Below, piece by piece: positions 45,361-64,000 of a stretch of DNA of 64,000 bases. The translations under genes were made by a program, and so were the position numbers. Origin of the DNA: a virus; the IMG/VR virus record IMGVR_UViG_3300032287_004484, positions 186,001-250,000 of that record, one strand, 5' to 3'. Below the pieces are notes generated by a model, which did no database searches, was not told the origin of the DNA, and saw only the letters and a program-made list of their open reading frames with translations. Position 1 is the stretch's first letter; every line of letters begins with the position of its first letter.

Positions 45361-45388
45361 TAAACATTGTATAAACATCTTGTATAAA
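45361..45388 (+). promoter_or_regulatory. weak candidate promoter
   Basis: TAAACA, a 16-bp spacer and TATAAA upstream of the gene at 45454. It lacks the TTTTTAGG block; confidence is limited. Confidence 0.35.
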
Positions 45389-45453
45389 ATTACACTGAAG
45401 GTGAAGAAGAAAATTAGTACTGATTAGTTATATAAACCAAAAAATAAATTGAT

Positions 45454-45855
45454 ATGGAAAAAAAAGAAAAACAAAAAAAATTAAATATCTTAATCTTAAG
45501 TTTTTATAAAATTTTAAAACTTTCTTCTGATGATCAATTATTTTTACCATTAGAAGATGTTAAAGAAATTAATGATGAAATGCGTGATAATTTAATGATG
45601 AAATTTTTAAATAATTATAACATAAATAAAAATTATTTATCAGATGATTTTTTTAAATATTTTATGAATAAAAATTTATTAGATAATATTGATGATATGA
45701 ATTATTTAGATTTTAATATTAAGGATAAAAGAATAGAAAAACTTTATAATAATTTTATACAGGATTTTAGTTTTTTTAAATATAAAAATAATGTTAAAGT
45801 ATCAAATGATAAAAAGTTTTTAGCAGAATTAGAAAGAATAAGAAATTTACCTTAG
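45454..45855 (+). CDS. hypothetical protein
   Basis: 133 residues, Asn/Asp/Lys-rich and helical, with no recognisable motif. There is no clear Shine-Dalgarno before the ATG; the first codons read MEKKEKQKKLNILILSFY. It precedes the RecB-like nuclease gene, which has its own promoter just after this stop codon. Confidence 0.55.
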   Translation: MEKKEKQKKLNILILSFYKILKLSSDDQLFLPLEDVKEINDEMRDNLMMKFLNNYNINKNYLSDDFFKYFMNKNLLDNIDDMNYLDFNIKDKRIEKLYNNFIQDFSFFKYKNNVKVSNDKKFLAELERIRNLP

Positions 45856-45857
45856 AA

Positions 45858-45886
45858 TAGACACTTTTTTATTTTTCTAATACAAT
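45858..45886 (+). promoter_or_regulatory. promoter for the RecB-like nuclease gene
   Basis: TAGACA (in TAGACACTT, shared with the tRNA-Asn promoter), a 17-bp spacer and TACAAT. The -10 ends five bases before the GTG start, so translation must begin at or near the first base of the transcript. Confidence 0.65.
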
Positions 45887-45891
45887 AAAAA

Positions 45892-46686: not shown

Positions 46687-47261
46687 AATCCTTCAATATC
46701 AAGTATTTGATATTTTTTATTTTTTTTAATTCGTTCTATTTCTGTTTTTAAATCATCAACAAAAATTATTTCATATCCTTGACTTTCCATAAATTTTATA
46801 GGATCATTTATTATTTCTTGACTTTTCCATTCAATTTTTTCTTTATCGTTTTTAAAATAAAAAAATTGATTAGATTGTGTTAATTCTATAAATTTTTCTT
46901 TATCAAATTTAGTTAAATATGTTTCATGATTATTAATTTTTTTTTCATCTTCTTTATTAAAAACAATATAATCTTTTGTTTTTAAACGATATTTTAAAAA
47001 TTGTAATCCCCTAGGTGCAGCATAAGGCGCTACCATTTTTTTTGTACCGACGAATAGACCTGTCGCCTTAGAATAATCTTTTTCTGATTTTGATTTTGCT
47101 GAAATTGCATAAGAGTTAGTCCAATTACTATTATGGTAATATGTTTTCATTTTTTTATTAAAATCTATTATTCTTTTATCGTCTAATCTATAAACATATT
47201 TATTATCTTCATTCGATTCATTTATACATATTAAATCTTTTAATTCTTTTAAAAATTTCAA
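46683..47261 (-). CDS. paralog A of a putative head-packaged protein pair
   Basis: 192 residues from TTG at 47261, chosen by alignment to the paralog at 47319-47888; an in-frame TTG also lies six bases earlier. The leader MKFLKELKDLICINES allows cleavage after Glu15, exactly as in the paralog. Shared blocks: KYVYRLDDKRI, ATGLFVG, APYAAPRG, KDYIVFNKED, FVDDLKTE. The early YR and later T-G-L-F faintly recall the R-S-E class of ADP-ribosyltransferases (T4 Alt is a packaged one), but the expected Glu is Gln here, so I do not call it. About half the residues match the paralog. Confidence 0.72.
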   Translation of the reverse strand: MKFLKELKDLICINESNEDNKYVYRLDDKRIIDFNKKMKTYYHNSNWTNSYAISAKSKSEKDYSKATGLFVGTKKMVAPYAAPRGLQFLKYRLKTKDYIVFNKEDEKKINNHETYLTKFDKEKFIELTQSNQFFYFKNDKEKIEWKSQEIINDPIKFMESQGYEIIFVDDLKTEIERIKKNKKYQILDIEGF

Positions 47262-47318
47262 AATCAATTACCTATATTCTTTATTTTTATTAATAAATAA
47301 AAATCATATTTACAAAAA

Positions 47319-47888
47319 TTAAGGTTCCTCTTCCTCAACATTAATTCCACTTTCTTCAAGTCTATCTTTTTCAGTTTTTAAATCATCAACAAATTTAATT
47401 ATATAACCTTGATTTTTCATAAATTCTATTGGATTAATTATTTTTTTTTGTTTCTCAAATTCTATTTTATTATTATTTTTGTATGCAAAATATTCATTAG
47501 AAGTTTCTAATTTTTGAAAATTTTTTTTATTGAAAGCAGTTAAAAATGGTTGATGTGATTCAATCTTAGATTTATCTTTTTTTCTAAAGATAATATAGTC
47601 TTTTTTATTATGATTATATTTAAGAAATGGAGTGCCTCTTGGAGAAGCATAAGGAGCAATGTCAAATAAATTTCCAGAAAATAAACCAGTGGATGTTTTA
47701 AAACCTTCTTTTGGTTTTGTATTATCTTGAAGAATTCCTGATTCTGTCCAATCATCTGTATGTTGATACGTATTTAAATTTAAATTGAAATTTTCTATTT
47801 TTTTATCATCAAATCTATAAACATATTTATTATCTTTATTTGATTCATTTATATATATTAAATCTTTTAATTTTTTTAAAAATTTCAA
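47319..47888 (-). CDS. paralog B of a putative head-packaged protein pair
   Basis: 189 residues from TTG with AGGGAT upstream. The leader MKFLKKLKDLIYINES matches the paralog at 46683 and ends in I-N-E|S at Glu15. Then KYVYRFDDKKI, TSTGLFSG, APYASPRGTPFLKY, KDYIIFRKKDKSKI and KFVDDLKTE. The order Arg, then Ser-Thr, then Glu (SNEYFAY) could fit an ADP-ribosyltransferase-like fold, at low confidence. The two genes are tandem with a 57-base gap, a recent duplication by appearance. Such a leader on a small soluble protein suggests delivery into the host with the DNA. Confidence 0.72.
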   Translation of the reverse strand: MKFLKKLKDLIYINESNKDNKYVYRFDDKKIENFNLNLNTYQHTDDWTESGILQDNTKPKEGFKTSTGLFSGNLFDIAPYASPRGTPFLKYNHNKKDYIIFRKKDKSKIESHQPFLTAFNKKNFQKLETSNEYFAYKNNNKIEFEKQKKIINPIEFMKNQGYIIKFVDDLKTEKDRLEESGINVEEEEP

Positions 47889-48016
47889 AATTAATCCCTT
47901 ATGTTAATATAATATTTTTACGGGTTTATTATAAAAAATACTTAAAAATAAACATCTTATTATAGAATAATATTAATTGAAAAAATTAATCAAGCTAAAA
48001 ATTAAATATTAGTACA

Positions 48017-48098
48017 GGATCTATGGTGAAATTGGTAGACACAAGAGACTTAAAATCTCTCGCATAAAAGCGTGCAAGTTCGATTCTTGCTAGATCCA
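48017..48098 (+). tRNA. tRNA-Leu (anticodon TAA)
   Basis: An 82-base class II tRNA. Acceptor arms GGATCTA (48017-48023) and TAGATCC (48091-48097) pair fully, with discriminator A; anticodon stem AGAGA/TCTCT encloses loop CTTAAAA with anticodon TAA. A long variable arm (CGC-x-GCG) and the T arm TGCAAGTTCGATTCTTGC are present. CCA is not encoded. It reads TTA, probably the most used Leu codon in this genome. A weak promoter-like site (TAAACA near 47949, TATTAA near 47971) lies upstream. Confidence 0.95.
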
Positions 48099-48113
48099 TT
48101 ATAAGGAGAAAAC

Positions 48114-48635
48114 ATGAGTCTTATAAAGTATGCTGAAGAAGAGATTAAGGCGGCTGGATTAAACGATCCAGACAGTGATTATAATGGCGATATTGGAAAA
48201 GCAGTATTAGAGTTAATACAAGTTTTTTCTAATCAAGGGCACTCTGGAATGAGTGCTTCTATTGTGAGAAATGTATTTAATAAACTTGTAAAATACGAAC
48301 CTTTGATTCCAATTACAGGTAATACAGAAGAGTGGATGGAAGTATCAGAAGGATTATTTCAAAATAAAAGACTAGGTGGTCTTTTTAAAGAAAATGGTAG
48401 AGTTTATTATTTAGATGCTATAATTTTTGTAGATGAGAATGGTAGTAGATTTTCTGGTATCTCTTATACTAAGAAAAAGAAAAAACAAATTACAAGTCGT
48501 CAGTTAGTTAAGACTTTTCCATTTATACCACAAACTTTTGAAATAGAAGTTTTTGATAAGAATGATGAGCGTTATATAAAAAATAAAAAAGAACTAAAAA
48601 AAGTTTTTAAATACTATAACTACTATGAAACCTGA
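48114..48635 (+). CDS. conserved phage protein of unknown function
   Basis: 173 residues. AAGLNDPDSDYNGDIGKAVL, FSNQGHSGMSASIVRNVFNK and LFQNKRLGGLF match from memory a hypothetical protein found across many phages (D-SDY-x-G-x-(I/L)G-x-AV and QGHSGMSA). I know of no function. A lysine-rich stretch (YTKKKKKQIT) follows. Good Shine-Dalgarno (AAGGAG) just after the tRNA-Leu, so it is probably on the tRNA transcript. Confidence 0.75.
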   Translation: MSLIKYAEEEIKAAGLNDPDSDYNGDIGKAVLELIQVFSNQGHSGMSASIVRNVFNKLVKYEPLIPITGNTEEWMEVSEGLFQNKRLGGLFKENGRVYYLDAIIFVDENGSRFSGISYTKKKKKQITSRQLVKTFPFIPQTFEIEVFDKNDERYIKNKKELKKVFKYYNYYET

Positions 48636-48849
48636 TTATCAAAGATTATTTCTTACTGAGTTTGTTGCTCTAATACAACAGAAATATAAAATTGAATTTA
48701 CTAAATTTTTCTATGAGGGAAAAAGAGAATATACGATTATGAAGCCTGAGTTTTTAATTCAAACTTACTCTGACCAAGAGGCAGAGAAATATAATTGCGT
48801 TTTTGTTATCAACTTTTTCTATTTTAAAATTATTAGAAAACTCTATTAA
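48625..48849 (+). CDS. small hypothetical protein
   Basis: 74 residues, aromatic-rich alpha/beta (FLTEFVALIQQKYKIEFTKF). It overlaps the preceding gene by 11 bases and the next by one base (TAATG). Function unknown. Confidence 0.6.
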   Translation: MKPDYQRLFLTEFVALIQQKYKIEFTKFFYEGKREYTIMKPEFLIQTYSDQEAEKYNCVFVINFFYFKIIRKLY

Positions 48850-49049
48850 TGAAAGTTTTAAAACTAAATGAATTAGACGATTCTTATTCTTTAGTAAAAG
48901 AAATATGTGATTATTGTAATGATGATATATTAACTGACAATATAAAAATTAATCATGTATTTACTCATAAGTCTATTATTTCTCCAGGACAAAAAATAGA
49001 ATTAGATATTTGTGAAAACTGCTTTCTCCAAAAATTTTTAAATTTCTAA
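48849..49049 (+). CDS. small zinc-ribbon-like protein
   Basis: 66 residues with CDYC near residue 18 and CENC near residue 57, enough for a single zinc ribbon; the intervening part is beta-rich. Coupled to the upstream gene by TAATG and followed at once by the tRNA-Asn promoter. Confidence 0.65.
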   Translation: MKVLKLNELDDSYSLVKEICDYCNDDILTDNIKINHVFTHKSIISPGQKIELDICENCFLQKFLNF

Positions 49050-49053
49050 AAAA

Positions 49054-49082
49054 TAGACACTTAAAAAACTATTTAATATAAT
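49054..49082 (+). promoter_or_regulatory. promoter for tRNA-Asn
   Basis: TAGACA, a 17-bp spacer and TATAAT. The expected start (about 49089) falls at the first bases of the tRNA (49091), so the primary transcript would begin almost at the mature 5' end. An RNA gene at this exact spacing is good support for the promoter model. Confidence 0.72.
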
Positions 49083-49090
49083 AAATAAAA

Positions 49091-49164
49091 TGGCAAGTAG
49101 CTCAGTAGGTAGTAGCAAAGCACTGTTAATGCTTGGGTCGTAGGTTCGAATCCTACCTTGCCAG
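49091..49164 (+). tRNA. tRNA-Asn (anticodon GTT)
   Basis: A 74-base tRNA. Acceptor arms TGGCAAG (49091-49097) and CTTGCCA (49157-49163) pair fully, discriminator G; anticodon stem AAGCA/TGCTT with loop CTGTTAA gives GTT; T arm GTAGG-TTCGAAT-CCTAC. CCA is not encoded. The phage proteins here are extremely Asn-rich, which would explain carrying this tRNA. Confidence 0.95.
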
Positions 49165-49228
49165 ATATTTAAAAAAAAATAAAACATATTAGAGATAAAA
49201 AAAACTTAAGTAATTATTTTATAAAAGC

Positions 49229-49432
49229 ATGAATAATTATACTTATAAAATTGAATATAATCGTTATAATTTAGGTGATTTTTTAGTAGAATTTATAGAT
49301 GGTAAAAAAAATAATGTTTGGATATTAGAAGATTTATTTAATTCAAGTGAAGTACTTGGTACAAAGCGTTATGATGCAACTTTAAGAGCAAAGGAATATA
49401 TAAGAAAAAATCATCCTGAATTATTACTATGA
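49229..49432 (+). CDS. small hypothetical protein
   Basis: 67 residues, starting MNNYTYKIEYNRYNLGDFLV and ending KNHPELLL. It overlaps the next small gene by four bases (ATGA); both begin with a Y-x-YKIE strand, so they may be diverged duplicates. No clear Shine-Dalgarno. Confidence 0.5.
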   Translation: MNNYTYKIEYNRYNLGDFLVEFIDGKKNNVWILEDLFNSSEVLGTKRYDATLRAKEYIRKNHPELLL

Positions 49433-49596
49433 AATATATATATAAAATTGAAAGTGATGCTATTATTGAAATTGGGGAGATACAAATTCGTTGGCTTTTT
49501 AAAGAATTACAAAACAAATCATCATTAATAAAATTTAGAAAATTTTATTCTATTACAACAATAGAATCTTTTAATAGAACACAGGATTTTTTTTAA
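49429..49596 (+). CDS. small hypothetical protein
   Basis: 55 residues beginning MKYIYKIESDAIIEIGEIQI. The ATGA overlap with the upstream gene and the similar opening YKIE strand support it as real. Function unknown. Confidence 0.45.
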   Translation: MKYIYKIESDAIIEIGEIQIRWLFKELQNKSSLIKFRKFYSITTIESFNRTQDFF

Positions 49597-49633
49597 ATCA
49601 TGTTATTAAAAATAATCCAGAATTAATCATATA

Positions 49634-49694
49634 ATATTTTTTATATACTGATTACTTTTTAGGTTTAATCGTTAGTTTGTATTTATTATATTAT
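49634..49694 (+). promoter_or_regulatory. promoter, copy 1 of a 45-bp duplicated upstream element
   Basis: Bases 49634-49678 are repeated at 50423-50467 with one mismatch. The element contains TATATACTGATTAC, TTTTTAGG and a TAATCG -35 at 49666-49671. A 17-bp spacer and TATTAT at 49689-49694 follow. It drives the gene at 49728. Confidence 0.72.
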
Positions 49695-49727
49695 TAACTA
49701 AAATAGTAACAAATAAAGGAGACAACT

Positions 49728-50366
49728 ATGAATAAATTACAAATACTTACAATTAAAGATTTAAATAAACAAGATCTAAAGAATAAAGATTTTGATCTTT
49801 TAGATATTAAAAAATCCATTAATTATGCAGCAGCTAGAAAAATAAGAATTAAAGAATTAGAACAAGAGGTTATTAAAGATGCAGACTTAGCGTTAAAATA
49901 TGCTAGTTCAGTTATACGTGGAGAATGGTTAGAGGGCGAAGATATTATTAGTTCAAACATTAATGCTTCAACACGTTACGCTAAACTTGTAATAAGTAAA
50001 AGATTTACAAAAGCTGAACCTTTAATTTTACAAGAATGTTATCCTACGTTATATTATGTAAGAACGATAATAAAACAAAGATTTCCAGAAGGTGAACAAA
50101 TAATAGCATCTAAACCAGATAGTGCTTATATATATGCTAAAGAATATATTTTTAGCAGATGGCCAGAAGCAGAAAAAACTATTAGTACAAATGCAGAGTA
50201 TTCCTTTCTTTATGCTGAGTTTATTAATGATAAATTTCCAATGGCTCATAAGACAATTTTTACATCTTCTAATTCTGAATGGAGAAATAAATATCTTAAT
50301 CTTCTTGAAAAGCTACGAATTAATACTCAAGAAATTAAAGATGAATATATTGAATTTTTATTATGA
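49728..50366 (+). CDS. GRW-x-EGE repeat protein
   Basis: 212 residues built from about five copies of a 25-33-residue helical repeat of the form YA-x3-I-x2-(R/E)W-x-EGE-x-I (for example YASSVIRGEWLEGEDII, then YAKLVISKRFTKAEPLI, YVRTIIKQRFPEGEQII, YAKEYIFSRWPEAEKTI). I recall this repeat from other phage and bacterial hypothetical proteins; it has no function known to me. The solenoid-like pattern suggests protein binding. Relatives in this window lie at 54823 and 61541. Good Shine-Dalgarno (AAGGAG). Confidence 0.75.
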   Translation: MNKLQILTIKDLNKQDLKNKDFDLLDIKKSINYAAARKIRIKELEQEVIKDADLALKYASSVIRGEWLEGEDIISSNINASTRYAKLVISKRFTKAEPLILQECYPTLYYVRTIIKQRFPEGEQIIASKPDSAYIYAKEYIFSRWPEAEKTISTNAEYSFLYAEFINDKFPMAHKTIFTSSNSEWRNKYLNLLEKLRINTQEIKDEYIEFLL

Positions 50367-50422
50367 ATTAAAAGAATTATTAGTAGGGATAATTATTCAA
50401 TTATCCCTAAATTTTTAATATG

Positions 50423-54822: not shown

Positions 54823-55140
54823 TTAAATCATCCATTGTAATAATTTTTTTTCATCATACTTATTATTCTTTTTTAAAAATTCTATATAATCATCTTTATA
54901 TTGAGATTTAAAAATAGTATGATGACCTTTTTCAAAAATATCTTCTAATATATTAATAGCATAAAAATAAGATACGTATGCATCTTTAGAAATAACTTCT
55001 TCTCCTTCATCCCAAGCTCCTTTAATCATATACATAGCATAATAAAAAGATTGCTCAGCATCAGTAGCAATAATTTTTTCTAGTTCTGTTATTCTTTTAT
55101 CCATAGATAAACTTTTATGTAAAGCTTCAATAGGTGTCAT
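54823..55140 (-). CDS. short GRW-x-EGE repeat protein
   Basis: 105 residues with two repeats of the type seen at 49728: YYAMYMIKGAWDEGEEVI and YFYAINILEDIFEKGHHTI, then DDYIEFL, also like the end of the 49728 and 61541 proteins. ATGA overlap with the upstream gene. Confidence 0.68.
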   Translation of the reverse strand: MTPIEALHKSLSMDKRITELEKIIATDAEQSFYYAMYMIKGAWDEGEEVISKDAYVSYFYAINILEDIFEKGHHTIFKSQYKDDYIEFLKKNNKYDEKKLLQWMI

Positions 55141-55421
55141 ATTAGGTGTTCTATTAATTTTAATTGATTTAAAACACTTTTTAATCTTCTAAAGACAAGA
55201 TTATTTTCTTTTATTATAAAATATTGTTCTTGATTGATTAATAATTTAAAATCCCAATTAATATCATTTAATAATTTATGATTATTAGAAATGATATTTT
55301 GTCCATTCTCAAAATAAATTTCTGTTTCAGTATTTTCCTGATTTACAAGAACATAATTTTTTATTAAGCAATCTGAATCTAAATAACTTTTTGATGTTTT
55401 TATACAAAGAAAATAATTCAT
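55137..55421 (-). CDS. small protein, LxEWx-tail family (diverged)
   Basis: 94 residues from ATG 55421, chosen for the ATGA overlap with the upstream stop. Opens with the strand pattern of the family (NYFLCIKTSKSYLDSDCLIK) and ends LKLIEHLI, a diverged form of the shared tail. Function unknown. Confidence 0.62.
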   Translation of the reverse strand: MNYFLCIKTSKSYLDSDCLIKNYVLVNQENTETEIYFENGQNIISNNHKLLNDINWDFKLLINQEQYFIIKENNLVFRRLKSVLNQLKLIEHLI

Positions 55422-55741
55422 ATCACCCATTCATGTAGATTAAATTTACCTAAAAAATCAACTTTATTTTTATTTAAAACATCTTCTTTAAAATTTAGTT
55501 TTAAAAGTTCTTCAAAAAGATCTTTATTATTTATCTTTATAGAAAGATTAAATTTAATTTTCAATTCATATTTAAAATCATTTTGGTTCTTGGTTTTCTC
55601 TTGTTTAGAATCTGAAAAATAAGAATATCCATTATAAACTAGATAATTTTCTTTATCAACATAATGATATAAAACGCAGGTAATAATTTTATCGTTAAAT
55701 AAATTAAGACACAAATAAGCGTTTATTTTATTTTTATTCAT
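55418..55741 (-). CDS. small protein, LxEWx-tail family
   Basis: 107 residues. N-terminal strands NAYLCLNLFNDKIITCVLY resemble the openings of the genes at 58592 and 63433, and the C-terminus FNLHEWVI is the family tail. First gene of the minus-strand operon; its promoter predicts a leaderless mRNA. Confidence 0.66.
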   Translation of the reverse strand: MNKNKINAYLCLNLFNDKIITCVLYHYVDKENYLVYNGYSYFSDSKQEKTKNQNDFKYELKIKFNLSIKINNKDLFEELLKLNFKEDVLNKNKVDFLGKFNLHEWVI

Positions 55742-55747
55742 ATTACA

Positions 55748-55787
55748 ATTATATATAAGAATAGTAATAGTGACTAAACCTAAAAAA
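55748..55787 (-). promoter_or_regulatory. promoter with TTTTTAGG box, minus strand
   Basis: On the minus strand: TTTTTTTAGGT, TAGTCA at 55776-55771, a 17-bp spacer, TATAAT at 55753-55748, then six bases to the ATG at 55741. It is divergent from the promoter at 55818. Confidence 0.72.
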
Positions 55788-55817
55788 AAGACATTTATAA
55801 ACTACCCGTACTGGATA

Positions 55818-55858
55818 TTTTTTTAGGTTTAAACACTAATAGAGTAAATAAGTATAGT
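55818..55858 (+). promoter_or_regulatory. promoter with TTTTTAGG box
   Basis: TTTTTTTAGGTTTAAACACT with TAAACA at 55830-55835, a 17-bp spacer and TATAGT at 55853-55858. It drives the MoxR gene at 55917 through a leader of about 50 bases with a Shine-Dalgarno. Confidence 0.72.
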
Positions 55859-55916
55859 ATTATATTAGAAATTTTTATTTATTAAGTAGAAATTTAATTT
55901 TAACAAGGAGAAAAAA

Positions 55917-57074
55917 ATGAGGAATTTAGAAAAAATATTAGACCTTTGTCAAAAATCCGACAATTCAGTCTTATTAAAGGGACCTCACGGAATAGGGAAG
56001 AGTGAAAGAGTAGAAGCATTCGCAAAAGAAAAAGGTTATCATTGCGAAATTTTATTTCTTTCTCACCAAGAAACTGGAGATTTAATTGGTATTCCATATT
56101 TAGAAAATGGAAATACCGTATGGAGTACACCAATCTGGTTACAAAGAATTTATGATGCTTCTAAGAATGGAAAAACGTGTGTATTATTCTTAGATGAATT
56201 AAACAGAGCAAGATTAGATGTTAGACAATCTGCTTTACAGTTAGTATTATCTAAGCAAATTCACCAGCACGTACTTCCAAAAGATTCTTTAGTAGTAGCA
56301 GCAGTTAATCCAGAAGATGATTACCAAGTGTCTGAATTAGATCCAGCACTTTTAGATAGATTTGAAGCTATTGAATTGAAAGCAAACACTGAAGAGTGGA
56401 TTGAATGGGCTAGAAAAAAGTCAGTCAATGAAACAGTAGTTTCTTTTGTAGCAGATAATCCAGATAAATTGTGGTTCAAAACTAACAATGAAAATGAAAT
56501 CAACCATCCTACTCCAAGAAGCTGGGTAAAAGTATCTAATTTTCTAAAAGTTTTAGAACTTGAAAAAGAAGCAGATGAGGAAAAATTCTTTTTACTTCAA
56601 ACTTTTGTAAATGGAAAGATTGGTAGAAGCGTTGGTAATCAATTTTCTATTTATTGGAAAGAAAAACAAGCACTTTCTATGGAAAGTATTGAAAAAGCAA
56701 TTAAGAAAATTAAGAATAGGAAGAAAGAAAACATGGACGAAGCTATGGAGATACTAAAACCAGTTCTCTCTACTATCGAAGTCATAAAACTTTCTCTTAT
56801 TGGAGAGGACTTACTTAAAAAGTATATTCCAAAAACAGCTACTATTGCAACAATAGATAAAGCATTTGAAACCGCTTTTCCAGTTATGGCTTTTTTCTAT
56901 TCTTTAGAATTAGAAGTTTCACATTCTATTCTAAAAGGTCTTAAAGAAAAAGACGATGAAAATATGAAAGAATTATACGCTGGTTTAGCTCGTTGTGATT
57001 CAGCAGCTGCTGGAAAATTTAGAGAAAAAGAAATTTTCCGAAGGATTATAGATAAATTCGACAACAAGAAATAA
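55917..57074 (+). CDS. MoxR-type AAA+ ATPase
   Basis: 385 residues. Walker A GPHGIGKS at 22-29, Walker B LFLDELNRA with Asp93/Glu94, sensor 1 VVAAVNPEDD, and arginine-finger region LDPALLDRFEAIEL are all present. The C-terminal helical region is typical of MoxR proteins that act on VWA partners. The next gene is such a partner (metallopeptidase-like plus VWA). Codon use is more regular than in the neighbours, suggesting good expression. AAGGAGA precedes the ATG; terminator follows. Confidence 0.87.
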   Translation: MRNLEKILDLCQKSDNSVLLKGPHGIGKSERVEAFAKEKGYHCEILFLSHQETGDLIGIPYLENGNTVWSTPIWLQRIYDASKNGKTCVLFLDELNRARLDVRQSALQLVLSKQIHQHVLPKDSLVVAAVNPEDDYQVSELDPALLDRFEAIELKANTEEWIEWARKKSVNETVVSFVADNPDKLWFKTNNENEINHPTPRSWVKVSNFLKVLELEKEADEEKFFLLQTFVNGKIGRSVGNQFSIYWKEKQALSMESIEKAIKKIKNRKKENMDEAMEILKPVLSTIEVIKLSLIGEDLLKKYIPKTATIATIDKAFETAFPVMAFFYSLELEVSHSILKGLKEKDDENMKELYAGLARCDSAAAGKFREKEIFRRIIDKFDNKK

Positions 57075-57100
57075 CTAATCCTTATTTCAATCTTCTTGGA

Positions 57101-57136
57101 AGCCACTACTTTTTTAGTGGCTCCTATTTTTTTTAT
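57101..57136 (+). terminator. terminator after the MoxR gene
   Basis: AGCCACTA pairs with TAGTGGCT (6-base loop) and is followed by CC and a T-rich run. Confidence 0.85.
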
Positions 57137-57146
57137 TTTAAATGTT

Positions 57147-57188
57147 ATTTTTTTAGGTTTAATCACTTGTAATTATTATTAGTATAAT
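57147..57188 (+). promoter_or_regulatory. promoter with TTTTTAGG box
   Basis: TTTTTTTAGGTTTAATCACT with TAATCA at 57160-57165, a 17-bp spacer and TATAAT at 57183-57188. It drives the VWA gene at 57245, so the MoxR/VWA pair has two separate promoters of the same class. Confidence 0.75.
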
Positions 57189-57244
57189 TTATATTATGGA
57201 ACAAAAAATAATTGAAAATAGAAAATATTTAATAGGAGGATACT

Positions 57245-58504
57245 ATGGATAAAATCAACAAAGAAGTCTATGAAGAAACAATGGCTAATACTCTTTGGGG
57301 ACAAGAAAATCAATATGTATTTTATGGTCACATAATTGCAGCCACAAAAGTACATTTTGATAATACACTACCTGCACCTGCTGGGGTATATTTCGCAAAA
57401 AGTCAATTTAATTTAGTGATTAATTTAGAAAAGTTTTCTGAATACTCTCTAAAAGAAAGAAGATCAATATTAGTTCACGAAGCTTTACATATAATTCTTA
57501 ATCATATAGGTAGAGCAAAGAATAAAAGAAGATTTTGCTGGAATATATCAACAGATACTGCTTTAAATCAATTTATCAAGGATTTACCGCCAGACTGTAT
57601 GTTACCAGAAAAATTTGGATTAGAACCAAAATTATCTGCGGAGAATTATTATTCTTTTCTTAGAAAGAAAATTGACGATAAAGAAATTTCTTTCAAAGTA
57701 ATTTATGAAGACGGTTCTTCTGACGATAACAACAATGGAAATCCGCAGCAAGGCAATGGAAAGAAAATATCGAAAGTTATTATGAGGGTTAAATCTAAAA
57801 GTGGTGTCAAAGAATATGAAATTGACCCTCACGTAGCAGACGATCGTAACGAAGGTGAAGTAAATGAAGAATTAGTAAATCTTATGAGGGAGAAATTAAT
57901 TCAACATGCTGAGAATAAAAGTAGGGGATTGATACCATCTGATATTGCAGATGAAATTGAAAAACTTCGTTCTAAGAAAATTGATTGGAAAAAGCATATT
58001 CGTAATCAAGCTTCTAATTCTTCCATAGATGTAGAAGAGTCTATAAAAAGAAGAAATCGTAGATTTATGAATCGAGTAGAAATTAAAGGATTTATAAAAA
58101 CTTATTCTTCTAAAGGAGTAGTAATATTAGATACTTCTGGATCAGTTAGTAATGAATTTATTTCTAAAACTTTAGGAGAAATTGATAACTTATGTAAATC
58201 AACTAATTCTGAAGTCGAACTAATTCAGGTAGATGCTCAAGTACATAGTATTAAAAAATATACTCCTTCTAATAAGAAAGTAGGTATTGTTGGTAGAGGT
58301 GGTACTTATCTTTATCCAGCAATTGAACATATTAAAAATAAAAAAATTCGTTGTGACTATATAATAGTATTAACGGATGGAGAAATTGAAAATTCTTGGA
58401 AAGAAGTACCTCAACAAAATATATTCTTTCTTTTACCCAAAGATGGAAAATTAGCGTTAGATATTTCTAATTTCAAAAAAGCAAAAGTTTTTAATATAGA
58501 TTAA
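57245..58504 (+). CDS. metallopeptidase-like + VWA-like protein (DUF2201 type)
   Basis: 419 residues. The N-terminal half carries HEALH (His78, Glu79, His82) with a following NH, a zinc-peptidase-like motif. The C-terminal half is a VWA domain with the MIDAS motif DTSGS at 296-300 and VLTDGE with Asp378. This arrangement is known from DUF2201-type proteins encoded beside MoxR ATPases; the ATPase is thought to remodel complexes in which the VWA protein binds the target. Between the domains are a Gly/Asn/Gln linker (about residue 160) and a basic helical region. AGGAGG precedes the ATG. Confidence 0.88.
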   Translation: MDKINKEVYEETMANTLWGQENQYVFYGHIIAATKVHFDNTLPAPAGVYFAKSQFNLVINLEKFSEYSLKERRSILVHEALHIILNHIGRAKNKRRFCWNISTDTALNQFIKDLPPDCMLPEKFGLEPKLSAENYYSFLRKKIDDKEISFKVIYEDGSSDDNNNGNPQQGNGKKISKVIMRVKSKSGVKEYEIDPHVADDRNEGEVNEELVNLMREKLIQHAENKSRGLIPSDIADEIEKLRSKKIDWKKHIRNQASNSSIDVEESIKRRNRRFMNRVEIKGFIKTYSSKGVVILDTSGSVSNEFISKTLGEIDNLCKSTNSEVELIQVDAQVHSIKKYTPSNKKVGIVGRGGTYLYPAIEHIKNKKIRCDYIIVLTDGEIENSWKEVPQQNIFFLLPKDGKLALDISNFKKAKVFNID

Positions 58505-58515
58505 AAAAATAATTA

Positions 58516-58548
58516 ATCTCTTTCTTTTTTAAGAAAGAGATTTTTTTT
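58516..58548. terminator. terminator after the VWA gene
   Basis: An 11-bp stem (ATCTCTTTCTT with AAGAAAGAGAT, 4-base loop) ends in eight T residues; A/T-rich outer arms extend the pairing. Likely active in both directions. Confidence 0.88.
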
Positions 58549-58591
58549 AATTATTTTTGATGATTTATTAAAAACAAAAAAGGATATAATA

Positions 58592-58882
58592 ATGAATCAA
58601 AAAGAATATACATTATCAATTAAAATAAATGATAATCAAAAAATAATAGGATTATCTGTATTTGACGCTAAAAACAATTTAAAATATACAGGTGAAAAAA
58701 TAATTAAAGATTATAGTTCAGACTTATCGTTTTATTTAGCAAATTTTCAAAGTGACCCACATCTAATTAATATAGATGAAAAAACTTTTAATCAATTTTT
58801 AAAAGCTGATTTTAGAGATATTAAAGATATGTTTTTAATTGATTTTTATAAAAAATATAATTTTGAAGAATTTATTTTATAA
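58592..58882 (+). CDS. small protein, LxEWx-tail family
   Basis: 96 residues. Opening strands YTLSIKINDNQKIIGLSVFD and tail YNFEEFIL place it in the family. AAAGGA precedes the ATG. It ends against a convergent family member (58877), overlapping by six bases. Confidence 0.66.
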   Translation: MNQKEYTLSIKINDNQKIIGLSVFDAKNNLKYTGEKIIKDYSSDLSFYLANFQSDPHLINIDEKTFNQFLKADFRDIKDMFLIDFYKKYNFEEFIL

Positions 58883-59155
58883 ACACCACTCCTCTAATCC
58901 ATTATAAATTAAAAACGTTTTTAAATCTATTTTTCTATAATCTTTTCTTTTTAAATTTAGAACTTTAAAAAATAAAACTTTATTTATTGGAACAAAAAAA
59001 TCTAAATTTAATTTAAAAAAAAGTAAATTTCCTTTCATTGAAAATTCGTTTGGATTATCTAAAAAAAAAATATCTCCTTTGTTTTTATCGTACACTCTAA
59101 TGGATGATATTTTTTCATTTTTTAAAGTAAAACCAAGGTAATAATTTTCTTTCAT
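58877..59155 (-). CDS. small protein, LxEWx-tail family
   Basis: 92 residues from ATG 59155. The frame is open further upstream, but that part overlaps promoter sequence. Opening YYLGFTLKNEKISSIRVYD and tail NGLEEWCL are both typical of the family. A possible minus-strand promoter (TTTAAA, 17-bp spacer, TAATAT) ends ten bases before this ATG and overlaps the plus-strand promoter box at 59180. Confidence 0.66.
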   Translation of the reverse strand: MKENYYLGFTLKNEKISSIRVYDKNKGDIFFLDNPNEFSMKGNLLFFKLNLDFFVPINKVLFFKVLNLKRKDYRKIDLKTFLIYNGLEEWCL

Positions 59156-59179
59156 GTGTTTTAATATATTAAGTGTTTT

Positions 59180-59219
59180 ATTTTTAGGTTTAAACACTTA
59201 TTATATATTATAGTATATT
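59180..59219 (+). promoter_or_regulatory. promoter with TTTTTAGG box
   Basis: TTTTTAGGTTTAAACACT with TAAACA at 59191-59196, a 17-bp spacer and TATATT at 59214-59219. It drives the gene at 59256. Confidence 0.72.
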
Positions 59220-59255
59220 ATATTATTACAAATAATAAAATAAGGAGAAAGTAAT

Positions 59256-59687
59256 ATGGAAAGAAAAAAATTATTAAAAACATCCGTTGAATTTTCAAAT
59301 CTGCTTGGTATTGAACCGTTTAACTGTTCATGGGCTCAAAGATCAATAAACTTGATAAGTGAAAACTTTGATGATTTTAAAGAATTAAAATTAAATTATG
59401 GCGTAGTTGACGTTGAAAATGATAAAGAAGTATTTTTTAAAATCTCAAATATTTCTTTTGAAGAAGAAATAAACATGGTCAGTTTCGTATATGGTAGCGA
59501 AGGTCACGATAGTTTAACTTTAAAAGATTTAATTGGTTTTATTGAGCACCTAAGAAAAGAAAAACCTAATAGTTGGGGTTCTATTATTCTTAATTGTGAA
59601 AACTTATTTGTTATCAATAATTGTGTTATTATTGGTGATAAACTTTGTTTTTCTTTTAAACCAAATAGTACAGGAGTTTCAGTTTGA
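59256..59687 (+). CDS. hypothetical protein
   Basis: 143 residues, alpha/beta, with EINMVSFVYGSEGHDSLTLK and a Cys in FNCSWAQRS near residue 24. AAGGAGA precedes the ATG. Not recognised. It starts a short operon with two overlapping small genes. Confidence 0.65.
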   Translation: MERKKLLKTSVEFSNLLGIEPFNCSWAQRSINLISENFDDFKELKLNYGVVDVENDKEVFFKISNISFEEEINMVSFVYGSEGHDSLTLKDLIGFIEHLRKEKPNSWGSIILNCENLFVINNCVIIGDKLCFSFKPNSTGVSV

Positions 59688-59872
59688 AGATAAGAATAAA
59701 TTTTGATTTTTTAAATGAAATGCTAAACAACGTAAAAAGTGTTTGGCATGAATTTAAAAAACTTGAAAAAGAAAATAGCCCGTCTTCTTGGATTAAAGAA
59801 GTAAACTTTGAGGAGGGAGCAGATGGTAAAAAATCTAATAGTTCTAGCAGCAGTTCTAGTGTTACTGAATAA
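59684..59872 (+). CDS. small hypothetical protein with Ser-rich tail
   Basis: 62 residues from TTG, with AGGAG upstream and a four-base overlap with the preceding stop. Helical N-terminus (FLNEMLNNVKSVWHEFKKLE); the last 13 residues are mostly Ser because they are read out of frame with the overlapping next gene. Real, but function unknown. Confidence 0.5.
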   Translation: MKIRINFDFLNEMLNNVKSVWHEFKKLEKENSPSSWIKEVNFEEGADGKKSNSSSSSSSVTE

Positions 59873-59990
59873 TTTCATTAGTGATTCAGATGTTGCAATG
59901 ACAGAATATAAAATAATTGAAAAAAATGCTAAAACAGAAATCAGATTTTACGATTCAGGTGAAAAATATCGTTGTACTCTAACAAAATAA
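59823..59990 (+). CDS. small exported or membrane-anchored protein
   Basis: 55 residues from ATG 59823, with GAGGAGG seven bases upstream. MVKNLIVLAAVLVLLNNFIS is a signal or anchor helix. The rest (TEYKIIEKNAKTEIRFYDSG, then YRCTLTK) is a small beta-rich domain with a single Cys. It overlaps the previous gene by 50 bases in another frame. Confidence 0.6.
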   Translation: MVKNLIVLAAVLVLLNNFISDSDVAMTEYKIIEKNAKTEIRFYDSGEKYRCTLTK

Positions 59991-60020
59991 AAAAATAAAA
60001 CCTAAAAGGGAAAGAAAACT

Positions 60021-60545
60021 ATGAAAACAGAACCATGGATTCAAAAACAATACTTCTCACAAGAAGAAGCATTTAAAATTGGGGAATCTGAATTTTTTAA
60101 TTTTTTTGAAAGCAAAAAATTAAAATTTGGAGTAGCATTAACATCTGGAGTTGTTGGTACAATTAGTAATTATCACGCAGTTAGACACCAAATATCTGAA
60201 TCAAGGTTCGATATGATAGGCTCTCATTATGCTGATATATACGCTATTGGATTAACTGCTTTTTTAGATATGATGATTATAGTTTTTTATCTTATGAGGG
60301 ATAAAAAATTAATTAACATATCTACTTTTTCAACATTCACTATTTCTGTATATGCTAACTTGATGTTATCTCTTCACAGTGCTGGTGGATCAACTTTTAA
60401 AAATTTACTTCTTAGTTTTTTAGATCCTGGACAATTTTTTCATTTATTCGTATCTTTAACTATGGCGACACTTCCAATCTTTGTATTAAAACACTGTATG
60501 GGATTATTAGTTCAACAATTAGAAAGTGAAAAAACTAACGCTTAA
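60021..60545 (+). CDS. multi-pass membrane protein
   Basis: 174 residues with four predicted membrane helices (about 36-52, 73-92, 97-117 and 136-160) and the motif LHSAGGS between helices. A Shine-Dalgarno (AAAGGGA) precedes the ATG. The C-terminus lies in a terminator palindrome. No family recognised; presumably acts in the host inner membrane. Confidence 0.68.
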   Translation: MKTEPWIQKQYFSQEEAFKIGESEFFNFFESKKLKFGVALTSGVVGTISNYHAVRHQISESRFDMIGSHYADIYAIGLTAFLDMMIIVFYLMRDKKLINISTFSTFTISVYANLMLSLHSAGGSTFKNLLLSFLDPGQFFHLFVSLTMATLPIFVLKHCMGLLVQQLESEKTNA

Positions 60546-60558
60546 GCGTTAGTTTTTT
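60529..60558. terminator. palindromic terminator overlapping a gene end
   Basis: A perfect 30-base palindrome (AAAAAACTAACGCTT and its complement) includes the last codons and stop of the membrane-protein gene and runs into T residues. Confidence 0.88.
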
Positions 60559-60572
60559 GTTTAGATGTTAAT

Positions 60573-60611
60573 ATTTTAGGATTAATCATTGTATTAAAAT
60601 GTAAGTATAAT
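60573..60611 (+). promoter_or_regulatory. promoter with TTTTAGG box
   Basis: ATTTTAGGATTAATCATT with TAATCA at 60583-60588, a 17-bp spacer and TATAAT at 60606-60611. It drives the gene at 60631. Confidence 0.7.
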
Positions 60612-60630
60612 TATCTAGTAGGTAATAAAA

Positions 60631-60966
60631 TTGAAAGAAAATTCTATTGTTAGACAATTAGTAAAAGTTTTAGAAGAAAAAACTCTAAAAAGAAAACAAA
60701 TGATTGAAGAAATTTGGAGAATCTCTGGAAGAAAAGATCCAATTAATTATTCATCTTGGTCAACAAACATTACTAAATTATATCAACTTGGTATTTTAAG
60801 AAAGCATAAGAAAATAGGATATTGGTGTGTACCTGGAACTTCTAAATTAAAATATTTTTATACTGGACCTTTTAATTATATAAAAGAAGGTATTATAAAT
60901 GAAGATGATCTTACACACCTTATGGTTAAAAAATTTGTAGAACAAAATGCTGATCAATTTATTTAA
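60631..60966 (+). CDS. winged-helix-like small protein
   Basis: 111 residues from TTG. The order of helices and a two-strand wing (VRQLVKVLEEKTLKRKQMIE, then STNITKLYQLGILRKHKKIG, then YWCV) fits a winged helix domain, so DNA binding and regulation are possible. The C-terminal part (FNYIKEGIINEDDLTHLMV) is unassigned. It could act on the shared promoter class, but nothing direct shows this. Confidence 0.55.
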   Translation: MKENSIVRQLVKVLEEKTLKRKQMIEEIWRISGRKDPINYSSWSTNITKLYQLGILRKHKKIGYWCVPGTSKLKYFYTGPFNYIKEGIINEDDLTHLMVKKFVEQNADQFI

Positions 60967-60998
60967 AAATAAACATTCATTTTATTAATAAATAAAAT
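60966..60998 (+). promoter_or_regulatory. promoter for the 61005 gene
   Basis: AAATAAACATTCAT with TAAACA at 60970-60975, a 17-bp spacer and TAAAAT at 60993-60998. Six bases separate it from the ATG at 61005. Confidence 0.58.
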
Positions 60999-61004
60999 GA
61001 GTTA

Positions 61005-61301
61005 ATGAATGATTATATTAGTGTCTCAAAATTTAACGATTCTGTTATTATTTACATTTATAGAAAAAATTATGTTTATTCAAATCTTATTATTACTTTT
61101 ATGAATCCAACTAAATATTTAACTCTTAGAAGGAAATTAAAAAATAATTGGTTTGTATATTACACGACTATGCCTTTTACAAAAAATAAAAATCAACTTA
61201 TAAATAAAGATAAACTTAGGTATTTATTATCTATTTCTTTTAATAAAGAAAACAATAGTAATTTTCATGTAGAACATGGCTTTGAGGAGTATTTTATATA
61301 A
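61005..61301 (+). CDS. small protein, LxEWx-tail family
   Basis: 98 residues. Beta-rich opening (VIIYIYRKNYVYSNLIITF) and tail HGFEEYFI. Predicted leaderless start, no Shine-Dalgarno. Function unknown. Confidence 0.62.
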   Translation: MNDYISVSKFNDSVIIYIYRKNYVYSNLIITFMNPTKYLTLRRKLKNNWFVYYTTMPFTKNKNQLINKDKLRYLLSISFNKENNSNFHVEHGFEEYFI

Positions 61302-61390
61302 TGATATTTTCAAAATTTGAGATCAATTAATTGAAAAATATTTTAAATATTTAAAAACATTAAAAATAAGTGATCAAAATTTAATCAGTT

Positions 61391-61427
61391 TTCAAGTTTA
61401 AACATTCAAATATATTTACTATATAAT
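61391..61427 (+). promoter_or_regulatory. promoter for the 61477/61541 genes
   Basis: TTTTCAAGTTTAAACATTCA with TAAACA at 61399-61404, a 17-bp spacer and TATAAT at 61422-61427. The leader of about 45 bases contains AGAGGAAA before the TTG at 61477. Apart from this promoter the stretch 61302-61476 holds no gene. Confidence 0.68.
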
Positions 61428-61476
61428 AATAATAGGGAATATTTTTATTATAAACACATAATAGAGGAAAATATTT

Positions 61477-61581
61477 TTGAATAGCGATATAATAACACTT
61501 AAAGATATTTATGAAATTACTAAAAACACTGGAAAACTGAATGGCTTTTATGAACATGATTTATCAAACTTCTTATGCTGA
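61477..61581 (+). CDS. short upstream frame overlapping the repeat-protein gene
   Basis: 34 codons from TTG, with AGAGG upstream. MNSDIITLKDIYEITKNTGK resembles the N-terminus of the 49728 protein (LQILTIKDLNKQDL). It ends 41 bases inside the next gene in a different frame. Either a short coupling peptide or the original N-terminus of the 61541 protein now separated by a frameshift. Confidence 0.4.
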   Translation: MNSDIITLKDIYEITKNTGKLNGFYEHDLSNFLC

Positions 61582-62047
61582 AGCAAAAAAAATTCTTAAA
61601 GATTGTAAAAAGAGTAAAAAAAGGGATCTTGAGAACGAAAAAAGATTATTAAGATATAAAGAGTATGCAATTTATTATGCTAGTAATATTATTAAAGGTA
61701 GATGGGAAGATTTAGAAAAAAATTTTTTAAGATCAAATGGAAGAGTTAATTCTAAAGAAATCGTTCTTTATTGTCGTAGAGTAATAAAAAAAAGATGGAT
61801 AAAAAGTGAAAAAAAGATTTTATTATATTCTGATGCTTCTTATTATTATTCTCTTTATATAATAAAAGGTAGATGGGAAAAAGGAGAAAAAAAAATATCT
61901 AATAGTCCATATTATTCTTTTTTATATGCTAAGCATGTTTTAAAAGATTATTTTGAATTAGGAAATGAAATTATTTTAGATTCTGACTATGCTAACGATT
62001 ATAGACAATTTTTAATTGATATAAATAAGGTAGAATATTTATTGTGA
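61541..62047 (+). CDS. GRW-x-EGE-type repeat protein
   Basis: 168 residues with four degenerate repeats: YYASNIIKGRWEDLEKNF, YCRRVIKKRWIKSEKKIL, YYSLYIIKGRWEKGEKKI and LYAKHVLKDYFELGNEII, then NDYRQFL. Same layout as the 49728 protein. There is no Shine-Dalgarno at the ATG at 61541; translation may depend on the upstream short frame. The stop overlaps the next GTG. Confidence 0.66.
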   Translation: MAFMNMIYQTSYAEAKKILKDCKKSKKRDLENEKRLLRYKEYAIYYASNIIKGRWEDLEKNFLRSNGRVNSKEIVLYCRRVIKKRWIKSEKKILLYSDASYYYSLYIIKGRWEKGEKKISNSPYYSFLYAKHVLKDYFELGNEIILDSDYANDYRQFLIDINKVEYLL

Positions 62048-62322
62048 ATTGTTATTTAGTGTATAGTTTATATATAAATAAAATTGATGTATTTTACTTA
62101 TATTTTAAAAAAGAAGAAAAAATAAAAATGTTTTCTTTTGCTGGGACTATATGTAACATTGATCCATTATCAACAGAAGGTTTTAACGAAGTGTTTCCAA
62201 CTAATAGCTGGAAAAGAATACCATTTAATGAGGATAATATATATGAGATAAAAAATGAAATAACAGCGTTATCTGAAAAACAATTTTTAGAAAAATTAAA
62301 ACTACAAGAGTGGCAAATTTAA
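62044..62322 (+). CDS. small protein, LxEWx-tail family
   Basis: 92 residues from GTG overlapping the previous stop (GTGA). Opening CYLVYSLYINKIDVFYLYF, tail LKLQEWQI. Coupled to the next gene by TAATG. Confidence 0.62.
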   Translation: MNCYLVYSLYINKIDVFYLYFKKEEKIKMFSFAGTICNIDPLSTEGFNEVFPTNSWKRIPFNEDNIYEIKNEITALSEKQFLEKLKLQEWQI

Positions 62323-62600
62323 TGAAAAATAAAAAAAGATTATATATAGAAGATTCAAAGATAACAAATAAAATACTTAATATTTTAGTTATAGATACCG
62401 ATAAAGATATAGTTATACATCAAAAAAAAGAATTTAAAATAAAAAAAATAGAAACATATTATAAAAATATTATTAAAGATTCAATACCAATATCAGATAA
62501 ATATTATGAACTGTTTAGTAAAATAAATTTAATTCATTTTTGTTGTTTAAATAGACAAGAATTTTTACAAGCATGTTTATTGGAGGAATGGACATTATGA
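62322..62600 (+). CDS. small protein, LxEWx-tail family
   Basis: 92 residues from ATG 62322 (TAATG overlap with the previous stop; an in-frame GTG lies 12 bases earlier). Strands ILNILVIDTDKDIVIHQKKE and tail CLLEEWTL. The Shine-Dalgarno of the next gene lies in its last codons. Confidence 0.62.
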   Translation: MKNKKRLYIEDSKITNKILNILVIDTDKDIVIHQKKEFKIKKIETYYKNIIKDSIPISDKYYELFSKINLIHFCCLNRQEFLQACLLEEWTL

Positions 62601-62770
62601 ATAATACTTTTTATCAAGGATTAAAAGGTAAAAATATATATCAAATAATAGATCAATATCTTGATAATCGTAATGAATTTAAAATTCTTTATAAGCAAAA
62701 AGATAAAGATAAATTTTTTGTTAAAAATGAAAAAGATTTTTTCAAAATCTTTAAAAAGACTTTTTTATGA
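62597..62770 (+). CDS. small hypothetical protein
   Basis: 57 residues from ATG 62597, with GGAGG upstream and an ATGA overlap. Lys/Asn/Phe-rich (NEFKILYKQKDKDKFFVKNE), ending IFKKTFL. ATGA overlap with the next gene. Function unknown. Confidence 0.52.
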   Translation: MNNTFYQGLKGKNIYQIIDQYLDNRNEFKILYKQKDKDKFFVKNEKDFFKIFKKTFL

Positions 62771-62946
62771 AAATAAAAATTCTTTTTTGTTATATAACGA
62801 TAGGAACTATTTTAGGTTTAATTTTTTATTTCTTAGACGATTCTTATATTGAAGAACAAGATAAAATAAAGATGTTTGCTTTGTTTTCTCTTTTTTATCC
62901 AATAATGATAATTATAAGAATATTGTTATTTTTTAAGAAAAGATAA
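62767..62946 (+). CDS. small two-span membrane protein
   Basis: 59 residues: a first helix (ILFCYITIGTILGLIFYFL), an acidic turn (DDSYIEEQDK), and a second helix (FALFSLFYPIMIIIRILLFF), then KKR. ATGA overlap with the upstream gene. The TTTTAGGTTTA inside it lacks a -10 at the right distance and is not a promoter. Confidence 0.58.
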   Translation: MKIKILFCYITIGTILGLIFYFLDDSYIEEQDKIKMFALFSLFYPIMIIIRILLFFKKR

Positions 62947-63081
62947 AAAGTAATTAGTTTTTAATTTATCATCTATATAATACTCATTTCTTTTATTAGA
63001 AGAAACATCCTCACAATGATGCTTCTTTCCATCTTTAATAACTTGCTTACATGTTCCACAAATTAAAACTTCTTTCTTCAT
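62926..63081 (-). CDS. small zinc-finger-like protein
   Basis: 51 residues starting MKKEVLICGTCKQVI, with CGTC and later HHC (residues ~21-23), enough for one zinc site. ATGA overlap with the upstream minus-strand gene. It converges on and overlaps the membrane-protein gene by 21 bases. Confidence 0.6.
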   Translation of the reverse strand: MKKEVLICGTCKQVIKDGKKHHCEDVSSNKRNEYYIDDKLKTNYFLSFLKK

Positions 63082-63362
63082 TTTATCCATCCTTTATACC
63101 ATTGTAAAATTACTATTTTTGCTTCACTTGATTTACGATTCATTTTTTTATATCTAGGTGCTAGAACTGGACAATCTATTTTTTCTAAAGCTTTTTGAAG
63201 ATCTTGAAATTCTTCAATATCAAACTGTTCAAAAATATTATTATCTCCAAAATTACACTTTTTATTAAAAATACTAAAAGCTTCAAACTTTGAAAACTCG
63301 CCGCCAATTATTGCTCCAGAATAATCTTCAGAACCTTTTTTACTTATTTTATATATACTCAC
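63078..63362 (-). CDS. hypothetical protein
   Basis: 94 residues, alpha/beta, containing YSGAIIGGEFSKFEAFSIFN and IDCPVLAPRYKKMNRKSSEA. AAGGAGAAAT precedes the ATG. First gene after a TTTTAGG-type minus-strand promoter. Not recognised. Confidence 0.62.
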   Translation of the reverse strand: MSIYKISKKGSEDYSGAIIGGEFSKFEAFSIFNKKCNFGDNNIFEQFDIEEFQDLQKALEKIDCPVLAPRYKKMNRKSSEAKIVILQWYKGWIK

Positions 63363-63384
63363 GCTATTTCTCCTTCTAGTATAT

Positions 63385-63423
63385 AGAATACTAGAATTTT
63401 GAGTAGATGCATAAACCTAAAAG
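63385..63423 (-). promoter_or_regulatory. promoter with TTTTAGG box, minus strand
   Basis: On the minus strand: CTTTTAGGTTTATGCATCT with TATGCA at 63413-63408, a 17-bp spacer and TATTCT at 63390-63385. It drives the gene starting at 63362. Confidence 0.66.
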
Positions 63424-63432
63424 TATATCATA

Positions 63433-63768
63433 TTAAATTAGATATTCCTCTAATTTAAGAGTTGTAAAAAGATCCTCTAAACTTTGACTAAAAATTTGAT
63501 TAGGATGAAGTCCTAATATATAATTTAATTGTTGAGGTGTCAAAACAAATACTTCATCCTCAGGATAACTAACTAAATACTCTTCATATAATTCATCGTT
63601 TAAAATAAAATCAACATAGTTATCACCTATTAAATCATTTTTTTTATCAAACTCATTAACGATTGATGGATCATATATTTTTTTATTTTCTAAATCAAAT
63701 AAAACGCATTCAATTATTTGATGATTAATTTGATGGCAATTAAGATAAATATAATAACTGTTTTTCAT
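63433..63768 (-). CDS. small protein, LxEWx-tail family
   Basis: 111 residues. Opening YYIYLNCHQINHQIIECVLF, a middle acidic part (YPEDEVFVLTPQQLNYILGL), and tail LKLEEYLI. ATGA overlap with the upstream gene. Confidence 0.66.
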   Translation of the reverse strand: MKNSYYIYLNCHQINHQIIECVLFDLENKKIYDPSIVNEFDKKNDLIGDNYVDFILNDELYEEYLVSYPEDEVFVLTPQQLNYILGLHPNQIFSQSLEDLFTTLKLEEYLI

Positions 63769-63998
63769 ATCACTAGCTCATATAATTTATTTTCAATAAA
63801 ATATTCATTAATATATTCTGATTTCATAGATTTTGGTCTATTCCTTTTTAAGTTAAAAAAAGTTTTTAAATTTAAAGGATACATTTTTTTTATATTAACA
63901 TCATATATATGATCATATTTAACATCCTTTAAAAGTAATCTTTCTAAATTAAAAGTTTTTTTGATATCATAACGTTTATCAAAATAACGAAATTCCAT
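63765..63998 (-). CDS. small hypothetical protein, possible LxEWx-tail relative
   Basis: 77 residues, basic, ending NKLYELVI, a distant version of the family tail; the N-terminal strand pattern is not obvious. The ATG overlaps a TAA at the window edge (TAATG), so another gene of the same operon probably lies outside. Confidence 0.55.
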   Translation of the reverse strand: MEFRYFDKRYDIKKTFNLERLLLKDVKYDHIYDVNIKKMYPLNLKTFFNLKRNRPKSMKSEYINEYFIENKLYELVI

Positions 63999-64000
63999 TA

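Follow-up and report, generated by a model that had tools for sequence, protein, structure and literature searches.

A conserved C-terminal tail on small proteins of unrelated families in a T4-like jumbo phage: a candidate recognition tag

Results

A cluster of small paralogous genes in a jumbo phage record

The analysed window is a stretch of 64,000 nucleotides, corresponding to positions 186001-250000 of the 290,274-bp virus record IMGVR_UViG_3300032287_004484. This single metagenomic phage record made up the dataset, and 424 genes were called in it by a simple longest-ORF rule, which sets some start codons too far upstream. Judged from its gene content, the record is a T4-like jumbo phage, since genes for a sheath, a gp23-like capsid protein, a T4-type portal and a terminase are present. 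Its replication genes are of bacterial type (PolIII alpha, DnaB and NAD ligase), and the closest known relatives are far off, with about 30% identity in the sheath.

The part of the window that concerns us contains the following genes of what we call family A, given with the last six residues of their products, together with two genes that lack the tail and are listed for context only.

55137-55430, minus strand: family A, tail LIEHLI (ORF and profile)
55418-55741, minus strand: family A, tail LHEWVI (body-only profile, E=1.3e-19)
55917-57074, plus strand: AAA_5/MoxR-type ATPase within the cluster, no tail
57245-58504, plus strand: DUF2201 metallopeptidase/VWA-like protein within the cluster, no tail
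58592-58882, plus strand: family A, tail FEEFIL (ORF, body-only profile and AlphaFold2 model)
58877-59197, minus strand: family A, tail LEEWCL (ORF and body-only profile)
61005-61301, plus strand: family A, tail FEEYFI (ORF and profile; next gene convergent)
62044-62322, plus strand: family A, tail LQEWQI (ORF and profile)
62310-62600, plus strand: family A, tail LEEWTL (ORF and profile; alternative start ATG at 62322)
63433-63768, minus strand: family A, tail LEEYLI (ORF and profile; next called gene 70 nt on)
63765-64000, minus strand: probable member of family A, tail LYELVI (ORF and profile)

Examples of the tail peptide are FLGKFNLHEWVI and NYDLNEIGEWLI. The eight genes and the probable ninth that a first-pass annotation had listed here were all found as ORFs with the tails it had given; the last of them extends beyond the window to record position 250157 and encodes 130 aa in full. 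Since the genes at 58592-58882 and 58877-59197 converge with an overlap of 6 nt, the end of the former is shared by no downstream gene. Among the 186 ORFs of at least 40 aa in the window, the pattern [LFI]x[EDQ][WYFH]x[IL]-stop was matched by nine, all of them at 54823-63768.

A profile built from the nine genes gave 28 matches in the 290-kb record, other clusters included, and reached E=2e-11 for genes that were not in the seed. An iterated profile search retrieved 49 ORFs from the whole record at E<0.005, the inclusion cut-off, with the best reversed-sequence decoy at E=0.0097. The paralogous family proposed in the first-pass annotation is real; some 20 of its members count as secure and about 40 as likely, and they lie in clusters elsewhere in the record too. 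The bodies proved as variable as had been described, with an identity of only about 20%, and the strand-rich N-terminal opening pattern is kept, but loosely only. For the tail families in general, no match was found in Pfam at the curated cut-off, and no convincing one in PHROGs, PADLOC or the sequences of the PDB.

The window and the record hold some further genes of note. There are two MoxR-type AAA+ ATPases in the window, one at 10860-12068 and one within 55917-58504, the second being paired with the DUF2201 VWA/metallopeptidase-like gene inside the family A cluster. At 9561-10460, in the structural region, a di-haem cytochrome c peroxidase-like gene with two CxxCH motifs was spotted by eye only. 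Two separate genes with about 3.9 kb between them (record 42860-44509 and 48373-50415) encode DNA polymerase III alpha, and the first of them ends with an intein-like stretch. A UvsW-like helicase gene is split at its Walker A motif into halves at record 285783-286292 and 288432-289949, with three small genes, one of them of family C (see below), in between; the break (GTGMGK|CLGKSTE... and ...YVHHN|TFIMS) points to a probable split intein. Both ends of the record (1-12700 and 279000-290274) bear arrays of tail genes, and a promoter-like site at record 289960 is directed off the end of the linear record, so that the two ends probably adjoin each other in the actual genome.

The tail is carried by three kinds of bodies and by single proteins

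The genes that carry the tail fall into three body kinds: the beta-rich bodies of family A; helical-repeat proteins with repeats of the type YSYxYAxxVIKGRWxEGE, for which no significant family match was obtained (family B); and 'MNYTYEI' proteins of the type MNYTYEI...SFxRTKEWVLKNHPELLL (family C). Profiles of the bodies only, built with the last 20 aa removed, recovered nearly disjoint sets of 20 genes for A, 16 for B and 21 for C, and the only gene common to the B and C sets (6156-6356) is decayed and has a mis-called start. Four carriers in the window, on bodies unrelated to family A, had been overlooked in the first-pass annotation:

49229-49432, plus strand: family C, tail NHPELLL (body-only profile)
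49728-50366, plus strand: family B, tail YIEFLL (body-only profile)
54823-55140, minus strand: family B, tail variant KLLQWMI (body-only profile and AlphaFold2 model); its start overlaps the stop of 55137-55430
61541-62047, plus strand: family B, tail KVEYLL (body-only profile)

AlphaFold2 predictions, which rest on shallow alignments, gave strands plus helices for the family A protein of 58592-58882 (pLDDT 82) and an all-helical model with a final helix at 97-104 for the family B protein of 54823-55140 (pLDDT 89). A comparison of both models with known folds yielded no convincing match; for family A, Foldseek returned nothing at E<=1e-3 (best viral match E=6.6e-3) and the best Z in VIA-align was 4.2.

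Single carriers were found as well. The protein encoded at record 35255-35548 matches DUF7296/phrog_4867 over residues 1-93 (E=4e-31) and ends in ...GDEEWLI where its relatives have another C-terminus. A 68-aa protein ends in YGEWII and a coiled-coil-like protein in NLSEHLL, both unrelated to the above families. In a UV-damage endonuclease, RDELLL extends past the point where its relatives end, which is compatible with chance.

The tail is far more frequent than expected

The pattern E[WYHFL]x[IL]-stop ends 71 of the 424 called genes, 67 of them in clusters, whereas about one such gene is expected from the internal rate of the same 4-mer in proteins (0.21%). The common extreme C-terminus of family A was confirmed with members defined by their bodies, as all 20 have E at -4 and I or L at -1. 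If V is also accepted at -1, this combination occurs in 20/20, 12/16 and 19/21 body-defined members of A, B and C, respectively, compared to 7/248 of the other genes outside clusters. The chain ends exactly at I, L or V in 76/76 assigned members, and residue -3 is W, Y, H, F or L in most. A tail profile made from A alone detects 13/14 B tails at an empirical p<0.01 and nine at p<0.001, and the B tail profile in turn detects 30/41 A tails; since this extended list of 41 was partly assigned by the tail, it is safer to rely on the numbers obtained from bodies only. The tail of family C shares the E and the hydrophobic end with A in an NHPE context of its own, and so follows a looser pattern only. 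The observed 71 of 424 against about one expected, together with the cross-family tail profiles, rule out a chance origin, and the tail is well supported as a conserved protein feature.

Tail codons double as translation signals in tight arrays

In tight arrays, the next gene takes its ribosome-binding site and its start codon from the codons of the tail: neighbouring genes overlap as ATGA, and the codon for E at -4 is spaced from the following start as a ribosome-binding site would be. Such a coupled downstream gene is present behind 51 of the 71 tail genes, leaving 20 uncoupled ones. E at -4 is encoded by GAG in 26/51 coupled but only 2/20 uncoupled genes (Fisher p=0.0013), and TGA is the stop codon in 46/51 versus 6/20.

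These figures bear on a DNA-level explanation, according to which translational coupling yields the tail as a by-product: GAG, a spacer and ATA/TTA-TGA would form the ribosome-binding site and the overlapping start of the next gene, unrelated genes would thus share their last codons, and cassettes would recombine at the identical junctions. Because tail codons in the arrays coincide with a ribosome-binding site and ATGA, such recombination could spread functionless tails to unrelated genes. The predominance of coupled genes with their enrichment in GAG and TGA is in line with this, as are a raised frequency of E at -4 among coupled genes outside clusters (9/30) and the location of two single carriers, the DUF7296 protein and the one at 281060-281266, within coupled arrays. 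However, the motif itself occurs in just 1/30 ATGA-coupled genes outside clusters, and this one is a member of family C; a ribosome-binding site needs neither W/Y/H at -3 nor L at -6; and the 20 uncoupled genes, among them the convergent pair 58592/58877 and an isolated family A gene at 146 kb, retain the tail with ordinary codons (GAA in 18/20, TAA stop in 14/20). Within family A, codons vary synonymously under conserved residues, for E (GAA 11, GAG 9) as well as for L, Y and H. Since uncoupled genes keep the residues and coupling alone gives only 1/30, selection appears to act on the end of the protein itself, with the nucleotide signals fitted into the tail residues. Translational coupling alone is thus weakened as the source of the tail; the DNA-level explanation is partly right, and we think it unlikely to be the whole answer. 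Even if it were, the arrays would show clearly how ribosome-binding sites and start codons can co-evolve with the ends of proteins.

Promoter-like sites in front of tail operons

Several tail operons are preceded by promoter-like sites of the form TTAGGTTTATACATCTA-N-TATAAT. They are present at 10 of 24 tail operons, which is a modest association (Fisher p=0.014), and weakly suggest an early type of expression of these operons. The motif TTTTTAGGTTTATACATCTA followed by TATAAT-like boxes occurs at 27 sites record-wide, e.g. at 2189(+), 280997(+) and 250928(-), and precedes other genes too.

Distant relatives share family B bodies but not the fixed end

The search for a close relative that carries the arrays yielded none; scans of viral contigs gave only two related contigs, here G001 and G002. 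G001 (IMGVR_UViG_3300031463_000001), a 125-kb contig, contains dense arrays of B-repeat proteins ending in ...KDHPEVKL/KDKL/KR, with a last residue that is not fixed. Since family B in G001 lacks the fixed end, the tag proposed below would be specific to the lineage of the home phage. In G001, 24 genes end in a KDHPEV-type motif at a variable distance to the stop, and the resemblance of this motif to the tail of our family C hints, from this one comparison, at an exchange of end pieces between bodies. The G001 B arrays (23731-25996, 44567-48223, 66747-71921 and 91066-93795) have a common N-terminus, MNISDLLKDPxKA, and the leader ISDLLKxP is found on other bodies near these arrays, too.

G002 (51.7 kb) encodes a capsid protein 86% identical in the matched part; it gave no family A match and ends before the array regions. 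A B-repeat body is also found in gene 435 of Salicola phage SCTP-2, which encodes one 657-aa protein (E=5e-12). Family A was detected neither in G001 nor in the record of SCTP-2. Genome contigs scanned with family B gave no match, and a search of INPHARED with one A and one B protein as queries returned nothing for A and a single weak match for B.

Discussion

A C-terminal recognition tag on diversified proteins

The finding that we seek to explain is a short tail, [L/I/F]-x-E-[W/Y/H/F/L]-x-[I/L]-COOH, that sits exactly at the end of small phage accessory proteins from three or more unrelated families. Several properties of the tail are in keeping with a recognition motif: its end is fixed, its acidic residue is invariant, position -3 is aromatic or bulky, and it does not depend on the body. 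Diversified bodies carrying one tail suggest adaptors or effectors for a common partner. Our favoured reading, which we hold with about even confidence, is therefore that of a C-terminal recognition tag read by one partner. This partner, of host or phage origin, would recognise the last residues and probably, with them, the free carboxylate, while the bodies, of which those of A are small beta/alpha domains, those of B helical repeats and those of C small domains, would supply different targets or functions. On this view the arrays would furnish one machine with adaptors or effectors that can replace each other, with a possible role as adaptors or in counter-defence. The next gene's ribosome-binding site and overlapping start, which lie within the tail codons, would act as a second, compatible constraint.

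The first-pass annotation had read the tail as a docking peptide for one common partner. This idea gains support from the presence of the same tail on non-homologous bodies with different predicted folds, and from its retention at the amino-acid level in uncoupled genes, and docking to a single partner may be its role; the tail could also be part of the fold in family A or, in tight arrays, a junction signal. Unrelated folds with only chance similarity at the tail had been named as evidence against docking: unrelated folds do exist among the carriers, but the similarity of their tails lies far above chance. A sliding-clamp-binding tail was considered and rejected, as the motif is absent from the replication genes examined.

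Instead of a tag, the tail could be the last helix turn of each fold, kept for packing, in which case the likeness between A, B and C would be a convergence aided by coupling. In the AlphaFold2 model of A the tail is ordered, with a pLDDT of about 84 for the last block, and it may thus belong to the fold; the B model has a final helix at its end, and the pattern of the A tail is amphipathic. On the other hand, E at -4 stays invariant on bodies that share only about 20% identity, and neither such a constant acidic residue nor an exact end is typical of packing. In the DUF7296 protein the native end is replaced by the same tail. We consider this explanation improbable.

Free hydrophobic C-termini are common protease signals, and the genes resemble small accessory genes, of which some lie behind sigma70-like promoters, so the tail might make small proteins short-lived via recognition by a host or phage protease, but a strict E at -4 and an aromatic residue at -3 exceed the needs of a generic hydrophobic degron, which makes this very unlikely.

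A broader form of the recognition tag, in which about 70 proteins of unrelated families would be tagged phage-wide for one receptor via [L/I/F]xE[W/Y/H/L]x[I/L]-COOH, new genes being enlisted by gain of the tail as in a phage counterpart of the poxvirus adaptor arrays, is put forward tentatively. If the tail is indeed a docking tag, this six-residue peptide would open up an entire class of uncharacterised phage proteins: a single pull-down could expose the common machine, new members could be read from their C-termini, and the phage would be seen to enlist new genes into one function via a shared end.

Comparison with known systems

A search of the open-access literature revealed no description of a phage system with a shared tail of this kind. 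Among the short linear motifs found at C-termini, ligands of class II PDZ domains end in hydrophobic-x-hydrophobic-COOH at a fixed end. The sequence of the tail, with W/Y/H/L-x-I/L and a terminal I, L or V throughout, fits this consensus; the PDZ_2 and PDZ_6 profiles found no match, and hence no PDZ receptor, in the phage record.

The capsid targeting sequence (CTS) of T4 is a short N-terminal peptide of about 10 residues on internal proteins that is processed by the prohead protease (PMC9026906). Like the tail, it is a short terminal peptide common to otherwise divergent phage proteins, which it sends to one place. The tail, in contrast, is extreme C-terminal rather than N-terminal. A CTS-like N-terminal role of the tail genes was rejected, as CTS-like N-termini are present on other genes of the phage while tail genes are generally without such leaders. 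T4-like leaders of this type (MxxFxxYLxxIxE) were seen on many genes, e.g. at record 128490-, 129042-, 146875- and 266193-, and especially in G002, and their number suggests that many proteins may be packaged in the head.

The poxvirus ANK/PRANC proteins form a multigene set, expanded by duplication, with varied and partly repeat-built bodies, whose conserved C-terminal element recruits a common machine; this element, PRANC, is a folded F-box-like domain that binds Skp1, in eukaryotes (PMC4353913). The phage proteins do not belong to this set, as no Pfam match to ankyrin or to F-box/PRANC was found among the A, B and C proteins scanned, and their element is about six residues long and forms the extreme end of bodies of unrelated folds. 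By analogy only, the two have in common one conserved C-terminal element on diversified bodies.
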